From contig JAJKHS010000023.1 of assembly GCA_021154885.1 (NCBI GenBank), positions 1-64,000 of the forward strand: a stretch of DNA of 64,000 nt, written 5' to 3'. Below are positions 420-46,331 of the stretch, in pieces. Numbering within the stretch: the stretch's first letter is position 1; each line of letters starts with the position of its first letter. The notes beneath the pieces were generated by a model. The model made no database searches and was not told the DNA's origin. It worked only from the letters and a program-made list of their open reading frames with translations. This DNA is from Thermoanaerobaculum sp. GTDB lineage: Bacteria; Acidobacteriota; Thermoanaerobaculia; Multivoradales; UBA5704. Made by a program: the position numbers and the translations under genes.

Positions 420-707
420 TCAATCCTCATCCTCGCGACGGAGGTCGAGGTCCGCGATGGACCGCGGGTCGTCCTCCTCCACGCTCCCGCTCTCCGGCTG
501 ATAGTCGGCCGCCGCGAGAAGGTCGTCGATCAGGGGGTCCAGGCAGTTTCGAATGCCGTTGGCGATGACGGTGCGGATCTCCGTTTCCACGTCCGGCTCG
601 CCTTCGAGGTCTCCCTGCGAGGTCTCTTGCGCCGACGGCGGAACACTCATCTGCACGCCCAAGAGCCGGTAACGGATCGACGTCAGATCTCCTGCGACAG
701 CCCACAT
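420..707 (-). CDS. Small acidic hypothetical protein
   Basis: This frame encodes 95 residues from ATG 705-707, which has the purine-rich ribosome site AAGGAAGG directly upstream. An in-frame ATG at 750-752 would add 15 residues but has a weaker site. The protein begins MWAVAGDLTSIRYRLLGV. A central helical segment (ETEIRTVIANGIRNCLDPLI) follows, and the tail is strongly acidic, ending LDLRREDED. There is no signal peptide, membrane segment or recognisable motif. It sits just upstream of the truncated hypothetical gene on the same strand and is probably in one transcript with it. I do not recognise the family. Confidence 0.5.
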   Translation of the reverse strand: MWAVAGDLTSIRYRLLGVQMSVPPSAQETSQGDLEGEPDVETEIRTVIANGIRNCLDPLIDDLLAAADYQPESGSVEEDDPRSIADLDLRREDED

Positions 708-990
708 TTCCTTCCTTGCGCCTTCGATCACCGTATGGCCTCCAGTCGTCATCTCGGGAGTCCCGCTCGCGAGCCGCTCACACGGCGACTCTGCCGGGCT
801 TCAAGCCTCTGCTTCCGAACTTGGGGAAAGTTCCCGGGCCGGGCACCTGCTATCTTGGACCGCGAAATTTCGCTGGAAGGCGGATGTCTCGCCGCAGTGG
901 GGACCGGCAACTTATCTTATGGGTGCCACGTTTTCCCCTTTCACAGCACCCAGATGTATGGAAGCCGTTGACAGTCCGGGAGGAGATTTC

Positions 991-2463
991 ATGGACCGTT
1001 CGTTCCGACCGCTGATCGTGTCGATCCTGGCACTCTGGAAGGGCTTGTCTCAAAAGGAGATCGGCGCGCGAGCCGGCGTCCGGCAAAAGCGGGTCTCCTC
1101 CAACCTCAAGAAGACGGCCCTGGAGGACGAGCTCTATGAGCAGCTCCTGCGGGGCGTGGAAGGCCGGCCGGCGGAGGTCGCGATCGTGACGGCCTGTCTC
1201 GAAGCCCTGGCCGCCCTGGAGGCGGACGGGGAGCTGACGGCCGAGGAGCAGGACGAGATCGAGACGGGAGTCCTGGAGGGGTCGCGCCACTTCCGGTCCG
1301 ATCTCACCGCGAGGGTCCGGCGCTCACGGGCGGCGCCGGCGTGGGACGACTACCCTCGGGCCGCCGAGCTCGAGACCGCCCGCTGGCACGCCGGCGAGCA
1401 GTGGTCGCTCCTCGAGAGTCTGCCGGAGGAGCAGCAGGTGACGGTGGTGAGGGTGACCCGCGACTTTCAAAACTGGGCGTTGATGGAGCTCGTCTGCGGG
1501 AAGTCTGCGGTGCAGGCGTCCCGCGACGTCGAGCGTGCGGCGGGGCTGGCCCGGCTCGCCATGGAGATCGCGGCGCGCGTCCGTGGACCGGAAGGCTGGC
1601 AGAGGCGGGTCCGCGGCTACGCTGCGGCCCACGGTTCCAACGTCCTGCGCGTGACCGGCAAGCTGAAGGCGTCGGACGCGGCCTTCGAGGAGGCCAAGCG
1701 CCTCTGGCTCTCGGGTTCCGACCCTGACGAGGTGCTCGATCCCGGCCGGCTGCTCGACCTGGAGGCCTCCCTGCGCCGGGACCAGCGCCGGTTCGGCGAG
1801 GCCTTGGATCGTCTGGAGGAGGCCCTGAGCGTGGGGCGTTGTCCGGAGCGCTACCTGATCAACAAGGGGATCAACTTCTTAGCGATGGGAGAGTATGAAA
1901 AGGCTGTGGAGGCTTTCCGCCAGGCTCAACCCCTGGTCGAGGAAGGGGGCGACACTCGCCTCGCCAACATCCTCAGCCACAACCTCGCCTCGGCGTTCAC
2001 GCACCTGGGCCGCTATGGCGAGGCTGCCGAGGTGGGACGGCGGGTGAGGGCCGTGGCCGTGGAGATGGGGGACGAGATCGGGGTGCTGCGCGGGGTCTGG
2101 CTGGAGGGGCGGATCGCCGCCGGGCTGGGCCGGCGCGAAGAGGCCTTGCGGCTGCTGGAGCAGGCGCGGCGGGAGTTTGCCGCCCGCACGATGTGGTACG
2201 ACGTGGCCCTTGCCCTGCTGGAGTCGGCGGCCCTGTGGCTGGACGAAGGGCGGACGGCGAAGGTCAAGGCGCTGGCCAGGGACTTGGAGAAAGTCTTCGA
2301 GTCCGAGGAGGTGCACCGGGAGGCCCTGGCCGCACTGCGGCTCTTCCAGGAAGCGGCCGAGCGCGAAGCCGCCACCGCCGGGCTGGCCCGCCGGGTCCTG
2401 GGCTACTTGTTCCGCGCCCGCCACGACCAGGGCCTCCGGTTCACGGCCTCAGGAGCCCTTTAG
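991..2463 (+). CDS. HTH-TPR regulator, paralog 1
   Basis: A 490-residue protein. The start at ATG 991 is chosen because AGGAG lies at 981-985; the frame is open further upstream but with no better site. Residues about 5-45 form a helix-turn-helix of sigma/Xre shape (LSQKEIGARAGVRQKRVSS). A linker follows, then a long alpha-helical TPR array to the end, with clear TPR helices such as YLINKGINFLAMGEYEKAVE and LSHNLASAFTHLGRYGEAAE. No membrane segment is present, so it should act in the cytoplasm, probably as a DNA-binding regulator with a ligand- or peptide-binding TPR domain (inference). The core is nearly identical to that of the next TPR gene, but the N-terminal domain differs. Its stop overlaps the stop of a convergent secreted-peptide gene. 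The layout recalls RRNPP receptors of Firmicutes, without evidence of common descent. Confidence 0.85.
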   Translation: MDRSFRPLIVSILALWKGLSQKEIGARAGVRQKRVSSNLKKTALEDELYEQLLRGVEGRPAEVAIVTACLEALAALEADGELTAEEQDEIETGVLEGSRHFRSDLTARVRRSRAAPAWDDYPRAAELETARWHAGEQWSLLESLPEEQQVTVVRVTRDFQNWALMELVCGKSAVQASRDVERAAGLARLAMEIAARVRGPEGWQRRVRGYAAAHGSNVLRVTGKLKASDAAFEEAKRLWLSGSDPDEVLDPGRLLDLEASLRRDQRRFGEALDRLEEALSVGRCPERYLINKGINFLAMGEYEKAVEAFRQAQPLVEEGGDTRLANILSHNLASAFTHLGRYGEAAEVGRRVRAVAVEMGDEIGVLRGVWLEGRIAAGLGRREEALRLLEQARREFAARTMWYDVALALLESAALWLDEGRTAKVKALARDLEKVFESEEVHREALAALRLFQEAAEREAATAGLARRVLGYLFRARHDQGLRFTASGAL

Positions 2464-2720
2464 CCGTTGGGGTCCCATTCGGCGCCTGCGTCCGACCGGG
2501 TCAGGCCATCGGGGTCCCATTCTGCGCCTGCATCGGTCCGCGCCGACGGTGTGGAGTTGTGGGTCAGGCCGCTCGGGTCCCACCCGGCGCCCGCGTCGGC
2601 GGTCGAAGGCACGAAAAGGGAAGAGAGAAGGCTCCAGAGCGGAGCGAACAGGTTGGTCTGGCCGGCTGTGGAGGTCAGGAGGGACGAGGTGAGAGCTACG
2701 GCGACGAGGGTTCGGCGCAT
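2460..2720 (-). CDS. Secreted small protein with threefold DAGAxWDPxG repeat
   Basis: An 86-residue protein from ATG 2718-2720, preceded by GGGGAG at good spacing; an upstream in-frame start adds nine residues but lacks a better site. Residues 1-20 (MRRTLVAVALTSSLLTSTAG) are a typical signal peptide. A Trp-containing amphipathic stretch follows (LFAPLWSLLSSLF). The C-terminal half carries three copies of a ten-residue motif: DAGAGWDPSG at 42-51, DAGAEWDPDG at 63-72 and DAGAEWDPNG at 77-86, the last ending the protein. The stop codon overlaps the stop of the convergent TPR gene. A near-identical gene at 4271-4531 has the same build with a different repeat. Secretion and a repeated short C-terminal motif suggest a peptide precursor whose receptor may be the adjacent TPR protein; this is inference. 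No known family was recognised. Confidence 0.75.
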   Translation of the reverse strand: MRRTLVAVALTSSLLTSTAGQTNLFAPLWSLLSSLFVPSTADAGAGWDPSGLTHNSTPSARTDAGAEWDPDGLTRSDAGAEWDPNG

Positions 2721-2846
2721 CGGCGGATCTCCCCGCGGCGCCGGCATCGAGCCTTCAGGGTCCGCGCGGGCCGCGTCCGCACATCATGGTGCTTCCGGCG
2801 CGGCGCGTGAAGGAAATTTCCTGTCTTCGTGCTAGTGGAGGAGCGG

Positions 2847-4274
2847 ATGAGGCAAAAAAATCGGCTGGTACGTCTGTTCCGGGCGCTCTCCGCAGAGACG
2901 CAGAGGAGCTTTGGCGAAAAGATCGGTATCCATCCCGTCCTGTTGGCCAAGTATGAGCTGGATGAGATTGAGCCCGGCTCGGAGCACCTGGAACGCGCGG
3001 CCCGCGGCGCCGGCTTGACGGTGCCGGCCGGGGAACGGCTCCTGCGGCAGGCCGCCACCCTGGCCAAGCCGCGGCAGCGGAGCGGTTCAGGACCTGAGGA
3101 CCTCTCAGGGCGGCTCGCGGAAGTGGCTTCCGAGGTCTATCAGCGCCTGCTGCGGCTGCCGCTTCCCGGCGTCACTCCCAAGCCTGAGGATCGGCAGGGA
3201 GCGGCCGAGCAGTGGGCGCTCCTCCGGGACCTGCCGGAGACGCACCAGTTGGCCGTGGTGCGGGTGGCCCGGGAGCTTCAGACCTGGCCGCTGGTGGAGC
3301 TCGCCTGTGAAGAGTCGGCGGTTCAGGCGTCCCGTGACGTCGACCGTGCGGCGGGGTTGGCGCAGCTCGCCCAGGAGATCGCGGACCGCGTCCGTGGGCC
3401 GGAGGGGTGGCAAAGGCGGCTCCGCGGCTACGCGGCGGCCCACGGTCCCAACGCGCTCCGGGTGAGAGGCGAGCTGAAAGCGGCGGACGCGGCCTTCGAG
3501 GAGGCCAAGCGTCTCTGGCTCTCCGGCTCTGACCCTGACGATCTGCTGGACCCCGGCCGGCTGCTCGACCTGGAGGCTTCCCTGCGCCGAGACCAGCGCC
3601 GGTTCGGCGAGGCGCTGGCCCGGCTGGAGGAGGCCATGATTGTGGGGCGTTGCCCGGAGCGCTATCTGGTCAAGAAGGGGACCAACCTATTGGCGATGCG
3701 AGAGTACGAGAAGGCTGTGGAGGCTCTTCTTCAGGCTCAACCCCTGGTCGAGGAACGGGGCGATGCGCGCCTTGCCAACATCCTCAGCCACAACCTCGCC
3801 TCGGCATTTACGCACCTTGGCCGTTTTGGCGAGGCCGCCGAGGTGGGACGGCGGGTGAGGGCCGTGGCCGCCGAGATGGGGGACGAGATCGGAGCGCTCC
3901 GTGGAACTTGGCTGGAGGGGCGCATCGCCGCCGGGCTGGGCCGCACCGCGGATGCGCTGGAGCTGCTGGCGCAGGCGCGGCGGGAGTTTGCAGCCCGAGA
4001 GATGGGCTACGACGTGGCCTTGGCGCTGCTGGAGGAGGCGGTGCTGCTGCTGGAGGAGGGCCGGACGGCCGAGGTCAAGGTGCTGGCCGGGGAGCTGACC
4101 CAGGTCTTCGAGTCGAAAGGGGTGCACCGGGAGGCTCTGGCCGCCCTGCGGCTCTTCCAGGAGGCGGCCGAGCGCGAAGCCGCCACCGCCGATTTGGCCC
4201 GCCGGGTTCTGGGCTTCCTGTTCCGCGCCCGGCACGACCAGGGCCTCCGGTTCACGGCGGCAGGAACGCTCTAG
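2847..4274 (+). CDS. Xre-like HTH-TPR regulator, paralog 2
   Basis: A 475-residue protein from ATG 2847, chosen because GGAGGAG lies just upstream; an in-frame GTG at 2829 has no such site. Residues about 8-55 look like an Xre-type helix-turn-helix (QRSFGEKIGIHPVLLAKYEL). This differs from the N-terminal domain of the preceding paralog, while the TPR core from about residue 120 on is nearly the same (for example AAFEEAKRLWLSGSDPD in both). It therefore looks like a tandem duplicate with an exchanged or diverged DNA-binding domain. It is divergent from the secreted-peptide gene at 2460-2720, sharing a 126-bp upstream region, and convergent with its own peptide gene at 4271-4531, with overlapping stops. 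Probable role: cytoplasmic transcription factor or sensor controlled through the TPR domain. Confidence 0.85.
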   Translation: MRQKNRLVRLFRALSAETQRSFGEKIGIHPVLLAKYELDEIEPGSEHLERAARGAGLTVPAGERLLRQAATLAKPRQRSGSGPEDLSGRLAEVASEVYQRLLRLPLPGVTPKPEDRQGAAEQWALLRDLPETHQLAVVRVARELQTWPLVELACEESAVQASRDVDRAAGLAQLAQEIADRVRGPEGWQRRLRGYAAAHGPNALRVRGELKAADAAFEEAKRLWLSGSDPDDLLDPGRLLDLEASLRRDQRRFGEALARLEEAMIVGRCPERYLVKKGTNLLAMREYEKAVEALLQAQPLVEERGDARLANILSHNLASAFTHLGRFGEAAEVGRRVRAVAAEMGDEIGALRGTWLEGRIAAGLGRTADALELLAQARREFAAREMGYDVALALLEEAVLLLEEGRTAEVKVLAGELTQVFESKGVHREALAALRLFQEAAEREAATADLARRVLGFLFRARHDQGLRFTAAGTL

Positions 4275-4531
4275 CCGTTGGGGTCCCAGCCGGGGCCTTC
4301 GTCCGACCGGGTCAGGCCACTCGGGTCCCATCCGGGCCCCTCGTCGGTCCGCGCCGGCGGTGTGGAGTTGTGAGTCAGGCCGTCGGGGTCCCACCCGGCG
4401 CCCTCGTTGGCGGTCGTTGGCGTGAAAAAGGAGGAGAGGAGGCTCCAGAGCGGAGCGAGCAGGTGGGTCTGGCCGACCGTGGGGGTCAGGAGGGACGAGG
4501 TGAGAGCTACGGCGACGAGGGTTCGGCGCAT
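4271..4531 (-). CDS. Secreted small protein with threefold DEGPGWDPxG repeat
   Basis: An 86-residue paralog of the protein at 2460-2720, starting at ATG 4529-4531 behind GGGGAG. The signal peptide (MRRTLVAVALTSSLLTPTVG) is almost unchanged and the Trp-containing stretch is LLAPLWSLLSSFF. Its three motif copies are NEGAGWDPDG (42-51), DEGPGWDPSG (63-72) and DEGPGWDPNG (77-86). Compared with the other paralog, the variable positions inside the motif have changed together in the second and third copies (DAGAE to DEGPG), while the spacers (LTHNSTP, LTRS) are conserved. That is what specificity divergence of a processed signal peptide would look like (inference). Only the last copy ends in DPNG, as in the first paralog. 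The stop codon overlaps the stop of the convergent TPR gene. Confidence 0.75.
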   Translation of the reverse strand: MRRTLVAVALTSSLLTPTVGQTHLLAPLWSLLSSFFTPTTANEGAGWDPDGLTHNSTPPARTDEGPGWDPSGLTRSDEGPGWDPNG

Positions 4532-4869: not shown

Positions 4870-5110
4870 AGCCTCACACAGGCTTCGCGAAGCGCGACGC
4901 GCGCCTGGCGAGGCGCATCATGGGCTTCGCCGGGCGCCTCACAGGCCTCGCGGATTGCGACACAGGCTCGCCGAGCCAATGATGGGCCTCGCGGAGCCCA
5001 TGATGCGCCTCGCCAGGCCTGTGACGCAATCGCCGAGGCCCATGATGCGCTTCGCCGTTCTCGTGTGGCGCCTCGCGAAGCCCGGCAGAGGGATCGCAGT
5101 CGCCGTCGCG
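4870..5110. repeat. Degenerate 21-bp periodic array with palindromic cores
   Basis: Within the 756-bp gap between the peptide gene start (4531) and the kinase stop (5288), about eleven units follow each other at a 21-bp step. Core words such as GGCTTCGCGAAGC (4881), GGCTCGCCGAGCC (4965) and GCGCCTCGCGAAGCC (5068) recur at that step. Each core is close to a small inverted repeat, usually preceded by CATGATG or CTCACA. The spacing is stricter than the sequence. Open frames crossing the array give heptad-like peptides on both strands, which follows from the 21-bp period and need not be coding. The rest of the gap (4532-4869 and 5111-5287) holds no gene that I can support. Confidence 0.7.
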
Positions 5111-21941: not shown

Positions 21942-22247
21942 ATGTTTCGTATGAACATGAATCGTAGGGTGGCGGCTCTGGCGGTCGTGGCGGCGCTCTC
22001 CCTGGGGGGACCGCTCGCCGCCGCGGGCTGGGAGAGGCCGGCGAGAGAGGTGGGCTCGGGAGATTTCCTGAGCGGCGAAATCTTCACGCGTTTCCTCGCC
22101 TGGCTCGGCTTCAGGCCGGCCCTGGAGGGGGTGCCGAAGCGCAAGAGCGGATCGAGCAACGACCCGAAGAGCCGTCCCCACACGGCCGCCGCGGACAGCG
22201 CAAGCTCCGACGCGGGGATGGGCATCGATCCCAACGGCGGGCACTGA
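21942..22247 (+). CDS. Secreted small protein ending in GIDPNGGH
   Basis: A 101-residue protein from ATG 21942 with AGGAGG directly upstream; an earlier in-frame ATG at 21906 lacks such a site. Residues 1-28 are a signal peptide (MNRRVAALAVVAALSLGG core). A Trp-containing amphipathic stretch follows (FTRFLAWLGF), then a hydrophilic spacer and the tail SSDAGMGIDPNGGH with DPNG at 96-99. The tail shares DAG-x3-DP-N-G with the repeat of the small protein at 2460-2720. It is followed by a terminator hairpin, then by a TPR protein gene 122 bases on. Inferred role: exported peptide precursor paired with that TPR protein. No known family was recognised. Confidence 0.72.
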   Translation: MFRMNMNRRVAALAVVAALSLGGPLAAAGWERPAREVGSGDFLSGEIFTRFLAWLGFRPALEGVPKRKSGSSNDPKSRPHTAAADSASSDAGMGIDPNGGH

Positions 22248-22369: not shown

Positions 22370-23731
22370 ATGATGCATTTGGGAAAGGGAGAGATCGAGG
22401 CGTTCCTGGCCGGCCTGTCCTCGCGGGAGGACCGCGACCGCCTGCTGAAGCATCTCCTGACTCGATGCGAAGGGTGTCTGCGGCGGTTCACGAGCCTGGC
22501 CGTGCCGCTGCTGGAAGAGGAGCCCTGGGCTCACGTCGAGACGGCGCCGGAGGAGGACTACGACGCGGCCCTCGCCCGGGCCGGCGCAGCGGCGCAGCGA
22601 TTCACCACGCGGTGGCGCAAAGAGTCCGAGCGATTGGATCGAGCCCTGGCTCTCGTCGAGCAGGCCGGGGGGCTCGGCGAAGGATTCCCACTGCGCCAGG
22701 TACAGACGCTCCATGGCTGGCCGCTGTGTGAGGCCCTTCTGCGCAAGAGCTTCGAGGAACGCTACCGGGATCCGAAGAAGATGCTGCAACTCGCCTATGA
22801 TGCTGCGCGAGTCGCCGAGACCACCCCGCCGGAGAAGTACCCACCCACCCCCGGCTTCGTCATGGACCTCCGGGCCCGCGCCTTCGCCGAGTTGGGAAAC
22901 GCCCATCGCATCAACCACCAGTTCCCTGAAGCCGAGCGAGCCCTCTCGCAAGCCCGGGAGTTCCTGGTGGAAGGGACTGGCGACTTCCTGCTGGAGGCCC
23001 GGGTGCTGGATCTCGAAGCTTCCCTGCTCAGCGACCGGGGGCGTTTTGCAGACGCGATCTCGCTTCTCGGCAAGGTCCACGACCTCTACCAGGAGGCCGG
23101 TGACACCCACCTCGCGGGCCGGGCATTGATCAGCCAGGGCTTCAATTTCCGCCGGGCCGGGCGACCCCGCGAGGCGATCGGGATCATGGAGCAGGGCATC
23201 GGGCTCGTCGAAGCCGAGCGCGAGCCGGAGCTCCCCGTCATCGGCCTGAAGGGCCTTCTCGATGCTTTGGTGGATGCCGGAGAGCTCGGGCGCGCCAGCC
23301 GCATGCTCCTGGCGAGCGGCCTGCGGGAGGCGTTTGCCGCGGAGCCGCTCAACCTTCTGAAGCTCCGATGGGTGGAGGGCAAGGTTCACTCCGGCCTGGG
23401 TCATTTCCAACGGGCAGAGAGCATCTACTGCTCGGTGCGAGAGGAGCTCCTGCGCCTTGAAAGGACCTACGACGCCGCGCTGCTGGGTCTGGAGTTGGCC
23501 GCCCTCTGGCTGCGGCAGGGCCGGGCGGCCGAAGTCCACGCCTTGGCCGAAGAGATGTACGAGACTTTCAGGATGCTGGAAGTCCACCGCGAGGCCCAGC
23601 GCGCCCTGTACTTCCTGCGTGAGGCGTGCCGGTGGCAGCGAGCGACGGTACCCCTGGTCCAGCGCGTGCGTTCGTTCATGGAGCAGCTCACCTGGAATCC
23701 CGAGCTGCGCTTCGCGGACTACGCTGGCTAG
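22370..23731 (+). CDS. TPR protein with N-terminal H-x4-C-x2-C box
   Basis: A 453-residue protein from ATG 22370, with GGGAGG eight bases upstream. The N-terminus has a possible zinc-binding box (KHLLTRCEGCLRRF; H28, C33, C36), similar to but one residue longer than the HxxxCxxC box of anti-sigma factors. A coiled region follows, then TPR helices to the end (for example ALISQGFNFRRAGRPREAIG). It shares core landmarks with the HTH-TPR proteins at 991-4274: W-x-L-x-E, a Lys or Glu-Ser pair, an Asp and LA-rich helices at the same place (HGWPLCEALLRKSFEERYRD here, NWALMELVCGKSAVQASRD there). Its neighbour upstream encodes a secreted DPNG protein. It is probably a cytoplasmic sensor or anti-sigma-like protein. 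The partner is unknown. Confidence 0.82.
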   Translation: MMHLGKGEIEAFLAGLSSREDRDRLLKHLLTRCEGCLRRFTSLAVPLLEEEPWAHVETAPEEDYDAALARAGAAAQRFTTRWRKESERLDRALALVEQAGGLGEGFPLRQVQTLHGWPLCEALLRKSFEERYRDPKKMLQLAYDAARVAETTPPEKYPPTPGFVMDLRARAFAELGNAHRINHQFPEAERALSQAREFLVEGTGDFLLEARVLDLEASLLSDRGRFADAISLLGKVHDLYQEAGDTHLAGRALISQGFNFRRAGRPREAIGIMEQGIGLVEAEREPELPVIGLKGLLDALVDAGELGRASRMLLASGLREAFAAEPLNLLKLRWVEGKVHSGLGHFQRAESIYCSVREELLRLERTYDAALLGLELAALWLRQGRAAEVHALAEEMYETFRMLEVHREAQRALYFLREACRWQRATVPLVQRVRSFMEQLTWNPELRFADYAG

Positions 23732-44577: not shown

Positions 44578-45936
44578 TCAGAGCGCGTCGAGCCCTGCTC
44601 GCGTGACCGGCTCGTTCTGCAGCCGCCGGAGGATGCCGCCGACCAGGCGGAGGACCTCCAGGGTGGCCTGATCACGCTCCAGGGCGTCGTGCAGCAGGTG
44701 GAGGGCCGAGAGGGCCTCGCGCTCCACGCCGATGACGCGGAAGCTGGTCAGCATCTCGGAGACCAGGCCCCGCACCTCGGGGGTGCGGCTCTGGCGCATC
44801 CATACGCCGGCAAGGTCGAGGGAGACGAGGGCGGCCTGATAACCCAGGCCGGCGTCGTTGAGGTCCTCGCGGATCTGCTGGAACGTCGCCTCGGCGGTAA
44901 CCAGGTCGCCCAGACCGGCGGCGATCTCGGCCTCGAGGCGATGGAGCTTGACGAGGTCGAGCCAGCCGGCGTGGGCGGCATAGAGAACCCGCATCCGCTG
45001 GAGCTGACGCTGCGCCCGCTGGTACTCGCCGAGCTCGACGCGGAACAGCAGGATGTTGTGCAGGGTGTGGAACACCAGCTTGGCGTCGCGCCCCCGGTCG
45101 ATCATGGAGAGCCCGCGCACCAGGAGCTGGAGCCCCTCTTCGGGCTTGCCGGCGTAGCCGGTGTAGAGGCCCTTCAGGATGACGACACGGCCGACCTCGT
45201 GCGAGTCGCTGTAACGGCGGTGGATCGCATAGGCGAGGTCCAGCATGCGGAACGCCTCCTTGAAGCGCCGCTGGTCGCAGAGCAGCGAGGCGTCGAGGTC
45301 GGCGATGCGGGCGTAGAGGAGAGGCTCGCCCGTCCCCAGGGCGCGCAGCTCCAGGGCGTACGCCATGGCCGCTTCCGCCTGGGCAAAGTCATCGGTGATG
45401 CGATAGGCGTTGGCGAGCTCGGCCCAGGCGCGGGCCTGCATGTCCGTCCGCCGCTCGGCGCCGTAGACTTCCGGGTCGAGCCGGTCGGCGGCGAGCCGGG
45501 CGAGGTCCGCCATGCGCAGCATGCCGGCCCGATCCGAGTGGCGCAATGCGCGGCTCTTCTCCAGCAGGCTCTCGCAGAGGCCCCAGGTGATCGCGCCTTC
45601 GGGCAGCGACAGCACCTCTGTGCGCTCCAGGGAGCGGACGATCTCCTCCGACCTCGCGGCGGCCACTTCGCGCTCGGCGCCCAGGCTCCTCTCGGTCTCC
45701 AGGGCCTTGGCGAAGGCCGCCGAAATCGAATGGTCGTAGGCGGCGTCCTCTTCGGCCGAGAGCTGCGGCTCCGGTCCGGCTCCCGGCCTGAACATGGCCG
45801 TCGCGAGCGGCGACAGGTCTTGCCGGCAGCGGTCACAGCCGCTTAAAAGGTGGGCCACCGTGGCTTTCGCCCCCCGCGCGGGCAGGTGATTGAGCAGGAA
45901 GCCCTCCAGGGTTTCGCTGTGTGGATGCTCGCTCAT
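44578..45936 (-). CDS. TPR protein with N-terminal H-x4-C-x2-C box, second copy
   Basis: A 452-residue protein from ATG 45934-45936 behind GAGGAG. The N-terminus holds the same box as the protein at 22370-23731 (AHLLSGCDRC; H29, C34, C37). The TPR core keeps the shared landmarks (ITWGLCESLLEKSRALRHSD), followed by helices such as ARAWAELANAYRITDDFAQA and ending near LRLVGGILRRLQ. There is no membrane segment. It lies 77 bases downstream of a gene for a secreted DPNG protein on the same strand, the same order as at 21942-23731. The box recalls zinc anti-sigma domains, so one idea is control of a sigma factor, but no sigma factor gene is nearby. Confidence 0.82.
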   Translation of the reverse strand: MSEHPHSETLEGFLLNHLPARGAKATVAHLLSGCDRCRQDLSPLATAMFRPGAGPEPQLSAEEDAAYDHSISAAFAKALETERSLGAEREVAAARSEEIVRSLERTEVLSLPEGAITWGLCESLLEKSRALRHSDRAGMLRMADLARLAADRLDPEVYGAERRTDMQARAWAELANAYRITDDFAQAEAAMAYALELRALGTGEPLLYARIADLDASLLCDQRRFKEAFRMLDLAYAIHRRYSDSHEVGRVVILKGLYTGYAGKPEEGLQLLVRGLSMIDRGRDAKLVFHTLHNILLFRVELGEYQRAQRQLQRMRVLYAAHAGWLDLVKLHRLEAEIAAGLGDLVTAEATFQQIREDLNDAGLGYQAALVSLDLAGVWMRQSRTPEVRGLVSEMLTSFRVIGVEREALSALHLLHDALERDQATLEVLRLVGGILRRLQNEPVTRAGLDAL

Positions 45937-46013: not shown

Positions 46014-46331
46014 CTAGTTCTGCGTGCCCGGCGGCACTGGCTCAGCCGGATGAACGACATAGACACCGTTCGGATCGATCCCCCAGCCTCTTTCAGACCC
46101 GGCGGGGTCTGGGGACGACGAAGTCGCATTTTCCGTGAGATGGAACCAGCCGGTCAGCGTGTCCAGCGCGGCATGCGCGCCCGGCACGGTGTCGAGAATG
46201 GCCTCCCAGACGCCGGCGAAGCGTTGCATGGAGCCCCGATTCGCAGCGGCCGCCGGTTGCGCCCCGACGAGCGTCAACAGGAGAACGAGCGTCAGCGCGG
46301 CTATCCCTCTGTGAGCGGTTCTGCGGTACAT
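46014..46331 (-). CDS. Secreted small protein with GWGIDPNG motif
   Basis: A 105-residue protein from ATG 46329-46331 with AGGAGGAGG upstream; the frame is open from 46430 but without a comparable site. Residues 1-30 are a signal peptide (IAALTLVLLLTLVGAQPAAA). A Trp-containing amphipathic region follows (FAGVWEAILDTV), then TGWFHLTENATSSSPDPAG and the motif GWGIDPNG at 82-89. Unlike its relatives, 16 residues follow the motif (VYVVHPAEPVPPGTQN). It is first in a unit with the TPR gene at 44578-45936. The repeated pairing of DPNG proteins with TPR proteins is the only functional hint. Confidence 0.72.
   Translation of the reverse strand: MYRRTAHRGIAALTLVLLLTLVGAQPAAAANRGSMQRFAGVWEAILDTVPGAHAALDTLTGWFHLTENATSSSPDPAGSERGWGIDPNGVYVVHPAEPVPPGTQN

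Follow-up and report, generated by a model that had tools for sequence, protein, structure and literature searches.

We analysed 64,000 nt of the genome of a Thermoanaerobaculum sp. (contig JAJKHS010000023.1; "the window" denotes this whole stretch), in which four genes for tetratricopeptide repeat (TPR) proteins each adjoin a gene for a small protein with a predicted signal peptide and a DPNG motif. Such pairs recur in the 8.2-Mb genome (G000) and in related genomes, the small proteins carry one or several copies of a conserved decapeptide, and residues on the concave face of the TPR superhelix covary with the core of the cognate decapeptide. We propose that each pair probably constitutes a private peptide channel, consisting of an exported decapeptide and a matched cytoplasmic TPR regulator, and the pairs point to a large, unrecognised peptide-communication family outside Firmicutes. 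Cytoplasmic TPR receptors that sense peptides are known from Firmicutes and their phages. A literature search, in which coverage of subscription journals and preprints was limited, returned no paper on these TPR/peptide pairs.

Linkage of TPR genes and small, predicted exported proteins

A preliminary description of the window had listed four TPR open reading frames (ORFs) with a small ORF next to each, all of which are present (Table 1), and had assigned a signal peptide and a DPNG motif to the small proteins. Each of the four indeed displays a K/R-rich N-terminus, a hydrophobic stretch and the DPNG motif, and a Trp/Leu-rich segment separates the motif from the signal peptide, where signal peptides were called from composition and not by SignalP. 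No transmembrane stretch was found in the TPR proteins of the window. The pairs pep1/TPR1 and pep2/TPR2 lie tail to tail on opposite strands, with stop codons overlapping by 4 bp, while pep3/TPR3 and pep4/TPR4 each share one strand with the small gene first. The small genes at 21942 and 46014 are preceded by the ribosome-binding site AAAGGAGG, pep1 and pep2 by GGGGAG, and the third-position G+C of the small genes is high. Neither Pfam nor NCBIfam holds a family for the small proteins.

Searching the own genome with TPR1 gave 64 TPR-family matches. The genome encodes about 60 family proteins, the majority of which have a small signal-peptide protein gene next to them, and the same kind of small gene recurs in the flanks of these TPR loci. 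The DNA pattern for GxxPhiDP[N/D]G matched 58 times in the genome compared to 4 times for a reversed-pattern control, so that chance occurrence of the motif was rejected. Of these 58 matches, 54 lie at most 1.6 kb from a TPR-family match, in regions making up about 3% of the genome (binomial p ~1e-75). Since the 4 unlinked matches equal the control number, this genome has few if any DPNG proteins that lack a TPR neighbour, and the adjacency that the preliminary description had made the touchstone of its proposal is borne out. It should be noted that GxxPhiDPDG is also met in ordinary proteins, the background frequency being 0.8 per Mb where a genome lacks the family.

A strict automatic partner scan of 203 non-redundant TPR genes with full flanks found a partner in the expected geometry for 123, compared to 18 in opposite orientations, some of which belong to the adjacent TPR gene of a tandem array; inspection by hand additionally revealed intact partners missed by the scan at L035, L038, L042 and L059. 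The geometry differs between two types of TPR gene. Where the TPR protein has a module resembling a zinc-binding anti-sigma (ZAS) domain, the peptide gene lies upstream and is codirectional; where it has a helix-turn-helix (HTH) domain, the peptide gene lies downstream and is convergent. Tandem cassettes are present in the window (991-4531), on contig C22 and at L064. In a phylum-wide sample of 297 genomes, TPR-family matches were confined to the own class, Thermoanaerobaculia. Within the order, they occurred in 38 of 72 genomes and 22 of 28 genera, the family being absent from one genus with more than 20 genomes, and match counts reached 74 in a genome of the same family as the window genome (G352) and 28 in G238. 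Over the 72 genomes of the order, motif density per Mb tracks TPR copy number (Spearman 0.70; reversed-pattern control -0.21).

Decapeptides and their covariation with the TPR groove

From 117 precursors, the consensus [D/E/K]-x-G-x-x-[I/M/L/V/W]-D-P-[N/D]-G was obtained. Numbering the N/D of DPxG as +2 and the residues ahead of DP as -1 to -6, Gly is found at -4 in 89% of precursors, D/E/K at -6 in 78%, and a hydrophobic residue at -1. Precursors contain 1-5 copies of the decapeptide, half of the 117 having 2-5, and pep1 and pep2 three apiece. The six residues before DPxG are 63% shared among copies within a precursor, compared to 27% between precursors, a difference reached in 0 of 500 shuffles. 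The final copy often forms the protein end, and the shortest precursors, of 45 and 49 aa (L139, L141), consist of hardly more than a signal peptide and one motif. In families whose TPR genes are single-copy and sigma-linked, the small gene with its signal peptide is kept and the motif is replaced, for example by EHGQIV or DNGHIVP.

AlphaFold predicts a TPR superhelix for TPR2 and TPR3 (predicted local distance difference test scores of 79 and 83), confident from about residue 110, with the N-terminal module of TPR2 poorly modelled. The best fold matches in the PDB are peptide-bound LGN and the quorum sensors Rap and NprR (Z about 20-25). Rap and NprR, at Z about 20-22, are level with or below LGN, matches to the TPR fold are promiscuous, and the shared fold is no evidence of function. 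A profile search of PDB sequences likewise returned generic TPR proteins only, with RapH at 3.5e-6 among many, and in Pfam and NCBIfam the TPR proteins matched generic TPR and HTH models and none of the RRNPP family models.

Covariation between groove and peptide was determined in a discovery set of 117 TPR/peptide pairs, with permutations kept inside TPR clades and a 95% family-wise (maximum) threshold; groove columns follow the residue numbering of TPR2. Four column pairs lay at or above threshold, namely 319 with -3, 276 and 272 with +2, and 279 with -2, and all four columns are located on A helices of the concave face, as assigned from the AlphaFold model of TPR2. Lys276 pairs with DPDG (22 D, 8 N) and Ser, Gln, Asn or Thr276 with DPNG; at position 319, aromatic residues pair with Gly at -3, L with Pro or Ala, and R, D or H with Ser; a large hydrophobic residue at 279 pairs with Gly.

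The main coupling rules were written down before further loci were fetched, and were then applied to 43 held-out pairs, consisting of new loci and earlier scan misses, whose TPR proteins are at most 75% identical to any discovery TPR. In this set, D accompanied K276 in 5/5 cases, compared to 1/19 (p = 1.4e-4), and significance was also reached for N with a polar residue at 276 (p = 0.0035), for P/A with 319L (p = 0.03) and for Cys at -3 with 315F (p = 5e-7). A tree from which the tested columns had been left out yielded independent contrasts of 18.2 in favour of and 0.5 against the pairing of K276 with D (p ~2e-5), 11.1 in favour of and 0.3 against that of aromatic 319 with Gly at -3 (p ~0.001), and 8.0 in favour of and 0.3 against that of 279 with Gly. 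Above-threshold couplings numbered six at core positions of the peptide and none at ten flanking positions. When both sets were combined (160 pairs), 11 of the 12 top couplings by clade-restricted z-score fell on A helices (p = 1.4e-4). Earlier, the top 30 columns had shown no significant enrichment on A helices (p = 0.15), and a monotonic trend in contact order along the groove was suggestive and likewise non-significant (rho -0.25 to -0.76). That a TPR protein prefers its own peptide, a point on which the preliminary description had staked its proposal, is indicated in silico, with groove residues covarying with the cognate core and the main rule holding in the held-out pairs. The covariation signal is genuine, though of modest size and less pronounced in the HTH subset, and it forms the strongest evidence here that each TPR protein would recognise its own peptide.

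Correlated sequences could in principle also arise without any contact, if cassettes, which do exist in tandem, were simply duplicated whole. Such co-inheritance would, however, predict neither a signal under clade-restricted permutations or independent contrasts, nor coupling confined to the core and the concave helices, nor chemically sensible pairs (Lys/Asp, polar/Asn, aromatic/Gly), and we regard it as very improbable. A different reading of the same covariation is that the TPR regulator binds the decapeptide of the unexported precursor within the producing cell and thereby reports export capacity or its own expression, with no cell-to-cell signal involved. This would account for the covariation, the cytoplasmic TPR protein and the signal peptide without an import step, and a motif at or near the C-terminus is the last part to leave the cell. 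The multiple near-identical copies per precursor, however, better fit the release of many ligands, and dozens of paralogues with differing ligand-facing residues are as found in channel-specific signalling, so that we consider such secretion monitoring unlikely. It shares the binding step with the private-channel reading, the sole difference being whether the ligand leaves the cell.

Sigma factors, N-terminal modules and neighbouring genes

Most codirectional members carry, as judged by eye, a ZAS-like motif H-x3/4-C-x2-C, which Pfam zf-HC2 matched only below threshold, in one fragment. At many loci, a gene for an extracytoplasmic function (ECF) sigma factor with regions 2 and 4, as identified by Pfam and NCBIfam, overlaps the ZAS-TPR gene at its start or directly adjoins it there, and the gene order in these sigma-bearing loci is small gene, sigma gene, TPR gene. 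In other orders of the class, more distant relatives consist of a sigma gene and a ZAS-TPR gene without a DPNG gene. None of the window's own four pairs has an adjacent ECF sigma gene, which is found in many relatives and on contig C4; the own genome contains six full sigma genes of the clade, three of which lie in the TPR cluster on C4. At L033 (G000 C4:6500-14500), three ECF sigma genes and two ZAS-TPR genes are interleaved, and a DPNG gene is lacking. Several expanded loci retain only a stub of 69-114 aa that aligns with the region-2 half of sigma and may still bind the ZAS module. Stubs overlapping the TPR gene start are located, for example, at L076:2835-3044, L067:3830-4072 and L036:3809-4138.

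The TPR tree implies at least 16 changes in sigma state and 3 in peptide geometry. Since these counts are independent of the root, the direction of evolutionary change is inferred. The family seems to have begun as modules of an ECF sigma factor and a soluble anti-sigma factor, with most copies having lost the sigma gene.

The order of small gene, sigma gene and anti-sigma gene in relatives resembles an operon under the control of its own sigma factor, which would suit an exported effector acting in adhesion, competition or matrix formation, as would the Trp/Leu-rich segment; the TPR protein would then bind it for feedback control or for export, like secretion chaperones. Against this, the precursors of 45-49 aa comprise little but signal peptide and motif and are still paired with TPR genes, and the HTH and ZAS N-termini as well as the sigma genes speak against a pure chaperone. 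We consider an effector role quite improbable.

No universally conserved third neighbour gene was found beyond the sigma gene and a small divergent protein, most clusters of neighbours being shadow ORFs. The latter is the small acidic protein next to TPR1 (Table 1), which has no match in Pfam and whose homologues adjoin about 15 other TPR loci, mostly of the HTH type, making its gene a candidate target of the HTH regulators. We additionally observed genes of 84-133 aa containing a ZAS module only (L060:4934-5188, L052:1995-2273, L064:1440-1841), which adjoin the small acidic gene, diverge from HTH-TPR genes and resemble a detached zinc module of ZAS-TPR proteins. Degenerate 21-bp tandem repeat arrays are located near TPR clusters, at 4912-5057 in the window, at L038:6069-6276 and at L061:5491-5762 (13 copies).

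Table 1. Coordinates of the gene pairs, decapeptides and neighbouring gene in the window
Feature	Position	Strand	Description
TPR1	991..2463	+	N-terminal HTH (weak Sigma70_r4 match) and TPR superhelix; partner pep1
pep1	2460..2720 (ORF may start at 2747)	-	Predicted exported small protein; convergent with TPR1
pep1 decapeptide copy 1	2568..2597	-	DAGAGWDPSG; from translation
pep1 decapeptide copy 2	2505..2534	-	DAGAEWDPDG; from translation
pep1 decapeptide copy 3 (C-terminal)	2463..2492	-	DAGAEWDPNG; from translation
TPR2	2847..4274	+	XRE-type HTH (HTH_3) and TPR superhelix; AlphaFold model m380ad4eae923
Putative peptide groove of TPR2 (part)	3660..3803	+	Codons R272, K276, T279, H315, S319; from family-wide covariation with peptide core
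pep2	4271..4531	-	Predicted exported small protein; convergent with TPR2; copies NEGAGWDPDG, DEGPGWDPSG, DEGPGWDPNG
pep3	21942..22247	+	Predicted exported small protein; single decapeptide near C-terminus; upstream of TPR3, codirectional
pep3 decapeptide	22209..22238	+	DAGMGIDPNG; from translation and genome pattern match
TPR3	22370..23731	+	ZAS-like zinc finger HLLTRCEGC and TPR superhelix; AlphaFold model m7f485f42173d
TPR4	44578..45936	-	ZAS-like zinc finger HLLSGCDRC and TPR superhelix
pep4	46014..46331	-	Predicted exported small protein; single decapeptide; upstream of TPR4, codirectional
pep4 decapeptide	46065..46094	-	ERGWGIDPNG; from translation and genome pattern match
Small acidic protein	420..752	-	Candidate local target gene; divergent from TPR1

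Proposed model and relation to known systems

We propose a model in which the small gene would encode a Sec-exported precursor with 1-5 copies of [DEK]xGxxPhiDP[N/D]G, which would be cleaved into decapeptides that return to the cytoplasm, for example via an importer of the Opp/Dpp type. There, the concave groove of the neighbouring TPR regulator, with residues matched to its own peptide, would bind the decapeptide and switch the N-terminal module, upon which HTH forms would bind DNA directly and ZAS forms would release (or capture) an ECF sigma factor. In terms of evolution, soluble ZAS-TPR anti-sigma modules may have gained an exported small protein and then largely lost or truncated the sigma gene, with cassettes multiplying to about 60-75 copies per genome, while one family would have exchanged its ZAS for HTH domains, the peptide gene moving to the convergent downstream position. 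What the sequences themselves show is the linkage, the architecture, the repeats, the covariation and the sigma genes with their stubs. The genome encodes two SBP_bac_5 proteins (Opp/Dpp type), which permits peptide import without showing it.

Several points weigh against the private-channel reading. Binding, export, processing, return to the cytoplasm and transcriptional output are all inferred, and in a host with two membranes the exported peptide would have to find its way back into the cytoplasm. About 40% of the TPR genes had no partner in the strict scan; some of these were false misses, others are accompanied by a sigma gene instead, and some may be orphans. In the held-out set, which was drawn largely from the same genera, the rules for 272 (p = 0.33) and 279 (p = 0.43) were non-significant on their own and the aromatic-319 rule was a trend (p = 0.11), while the coupling of 315F with Cys at -3 is based on few evolutionary events, too few for contrasts. 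When the analysis was restricted to convergent HTH pairs, the K276 rule was borderline (p = 0.05) and the aromatic-319 rule absent. A nested score, trained with homologues above 60% identity excluded, ranked cognate over decoy peptides with an area under the curve of 0.61 (se 0.025), compared to 0.47 for random columns, which speaks for a preference for the own peptide but amounts to modest ligand discrimination.

The preliminary description had suggested a receptor/propeptide system comparable to RRNPP outside Firmicutes. Linkage and covariation strongly favour its receptor/propeptide part; the system is not simply RRNPP in another phylum, since most members carry an anti-sigma-like module and relatives have sigma genes or stubs between peptide and TPR genes. 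RRNPP systems (Rap-Phr, NprR-NprX, PlcR-PapR, Rgg-SHP, PrgX-PrgQ, AimR-AimP) are alike in combining a cytoplasmic TPR regulator, often HTH-bearing, with an adjacent small Sec-exported precursor, and this arrangement of a TPR gene beside a small gene with a Sec-type signal peptide (by composition) is found here. Among bacterial regulators, the predicted TPR model appears closest to Rap and NprR. An RRNPP detector uses as defaults receptors of 250-500 aa, propeptides of 10-100 aa and a spacing of -60 to 400 bp (PMC10075063). The receptors described here are mostly within 250-500 aa and many pairs fit these defaults, but a good number of precursors are longer than 100 aa, and in loci with a sigma gene the spacing is above 400 bp. 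Intragenic duplications have been reported for RRNPP propeptides, too (PMC10075063). In contrast to RRNPP, the host belongs to Acidobacteriota (Thermoanaerobaculia) and not to Firmicutes or their mobile elements, precursors are mostly 45-180 aa compared to 21-50 and share a conserved DP[N/D]G core, the ZAS-type anti-sigma module is present in most members, with a sigma gene or stub between the genes in relatives, and up to about 75 copies occur per genome.

Soluble ZAS anti-sigma factors are known and include group ECF270 from Acidobacteria, of unknown mechanism (PMC8999054). Pairs of ECF and soluble ZAS factors (RpoE-ChrR, SigH-RshA; groups ECF270/271) resemble many of the present loci in having the ECF gene directly upstream, and most codirectional members in the ZAS-like H-x3/4-C-x2-C motif (by eye), whereas here a TPR superhelix, to which an exported peptide is linked, would serve as sensor, and the sigma factor is lost or reduced to a sigma2-like stub in most expanded loci. 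In ECF42, likewise a regulatory unit of ECF sigma factor and TPR, the sigma factor bears a C-terminal TPR extension (PMC8999054); the TPR is fused to sigma there, but belongs to a ZAS or HTH protein encoded by a separate gene here. LGN/Pins, the top fold match, is an eight-repeat superhelix wrapping a linear peptide, but these eukaryotic polarity proteins are functionally unrelated.

A further-reaching claim, for and against which we find the arguments evenly balanced, is that the family constitutes an independently evolved superfamily, in a phylum with two membranes, of peptide-gated soluble ZAS-TPR anti-sigma factors and of HTH forms descended from them. A genome would then hold up to about 75 channels, and recognition would follow a readable code in which position 276 specifies N/D and positions 319 and 279 specify -3 and -2. 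A separate origin in Acidobacteriota from sigma/anti-sigma pairs would, if true, reveal how systems of this kind come about, intermediates having persisted to the present. With roughly 60-75 paralogous putative channels in one genome and a covariation code, the specificity between receptor and ligand is open to direct tests, and many orthogonal parts could be obtained. For the Acidobacteriota, a dominant and little-cultured phylum, the pairs would, if the reading is true, be a first sign of peptide communication.

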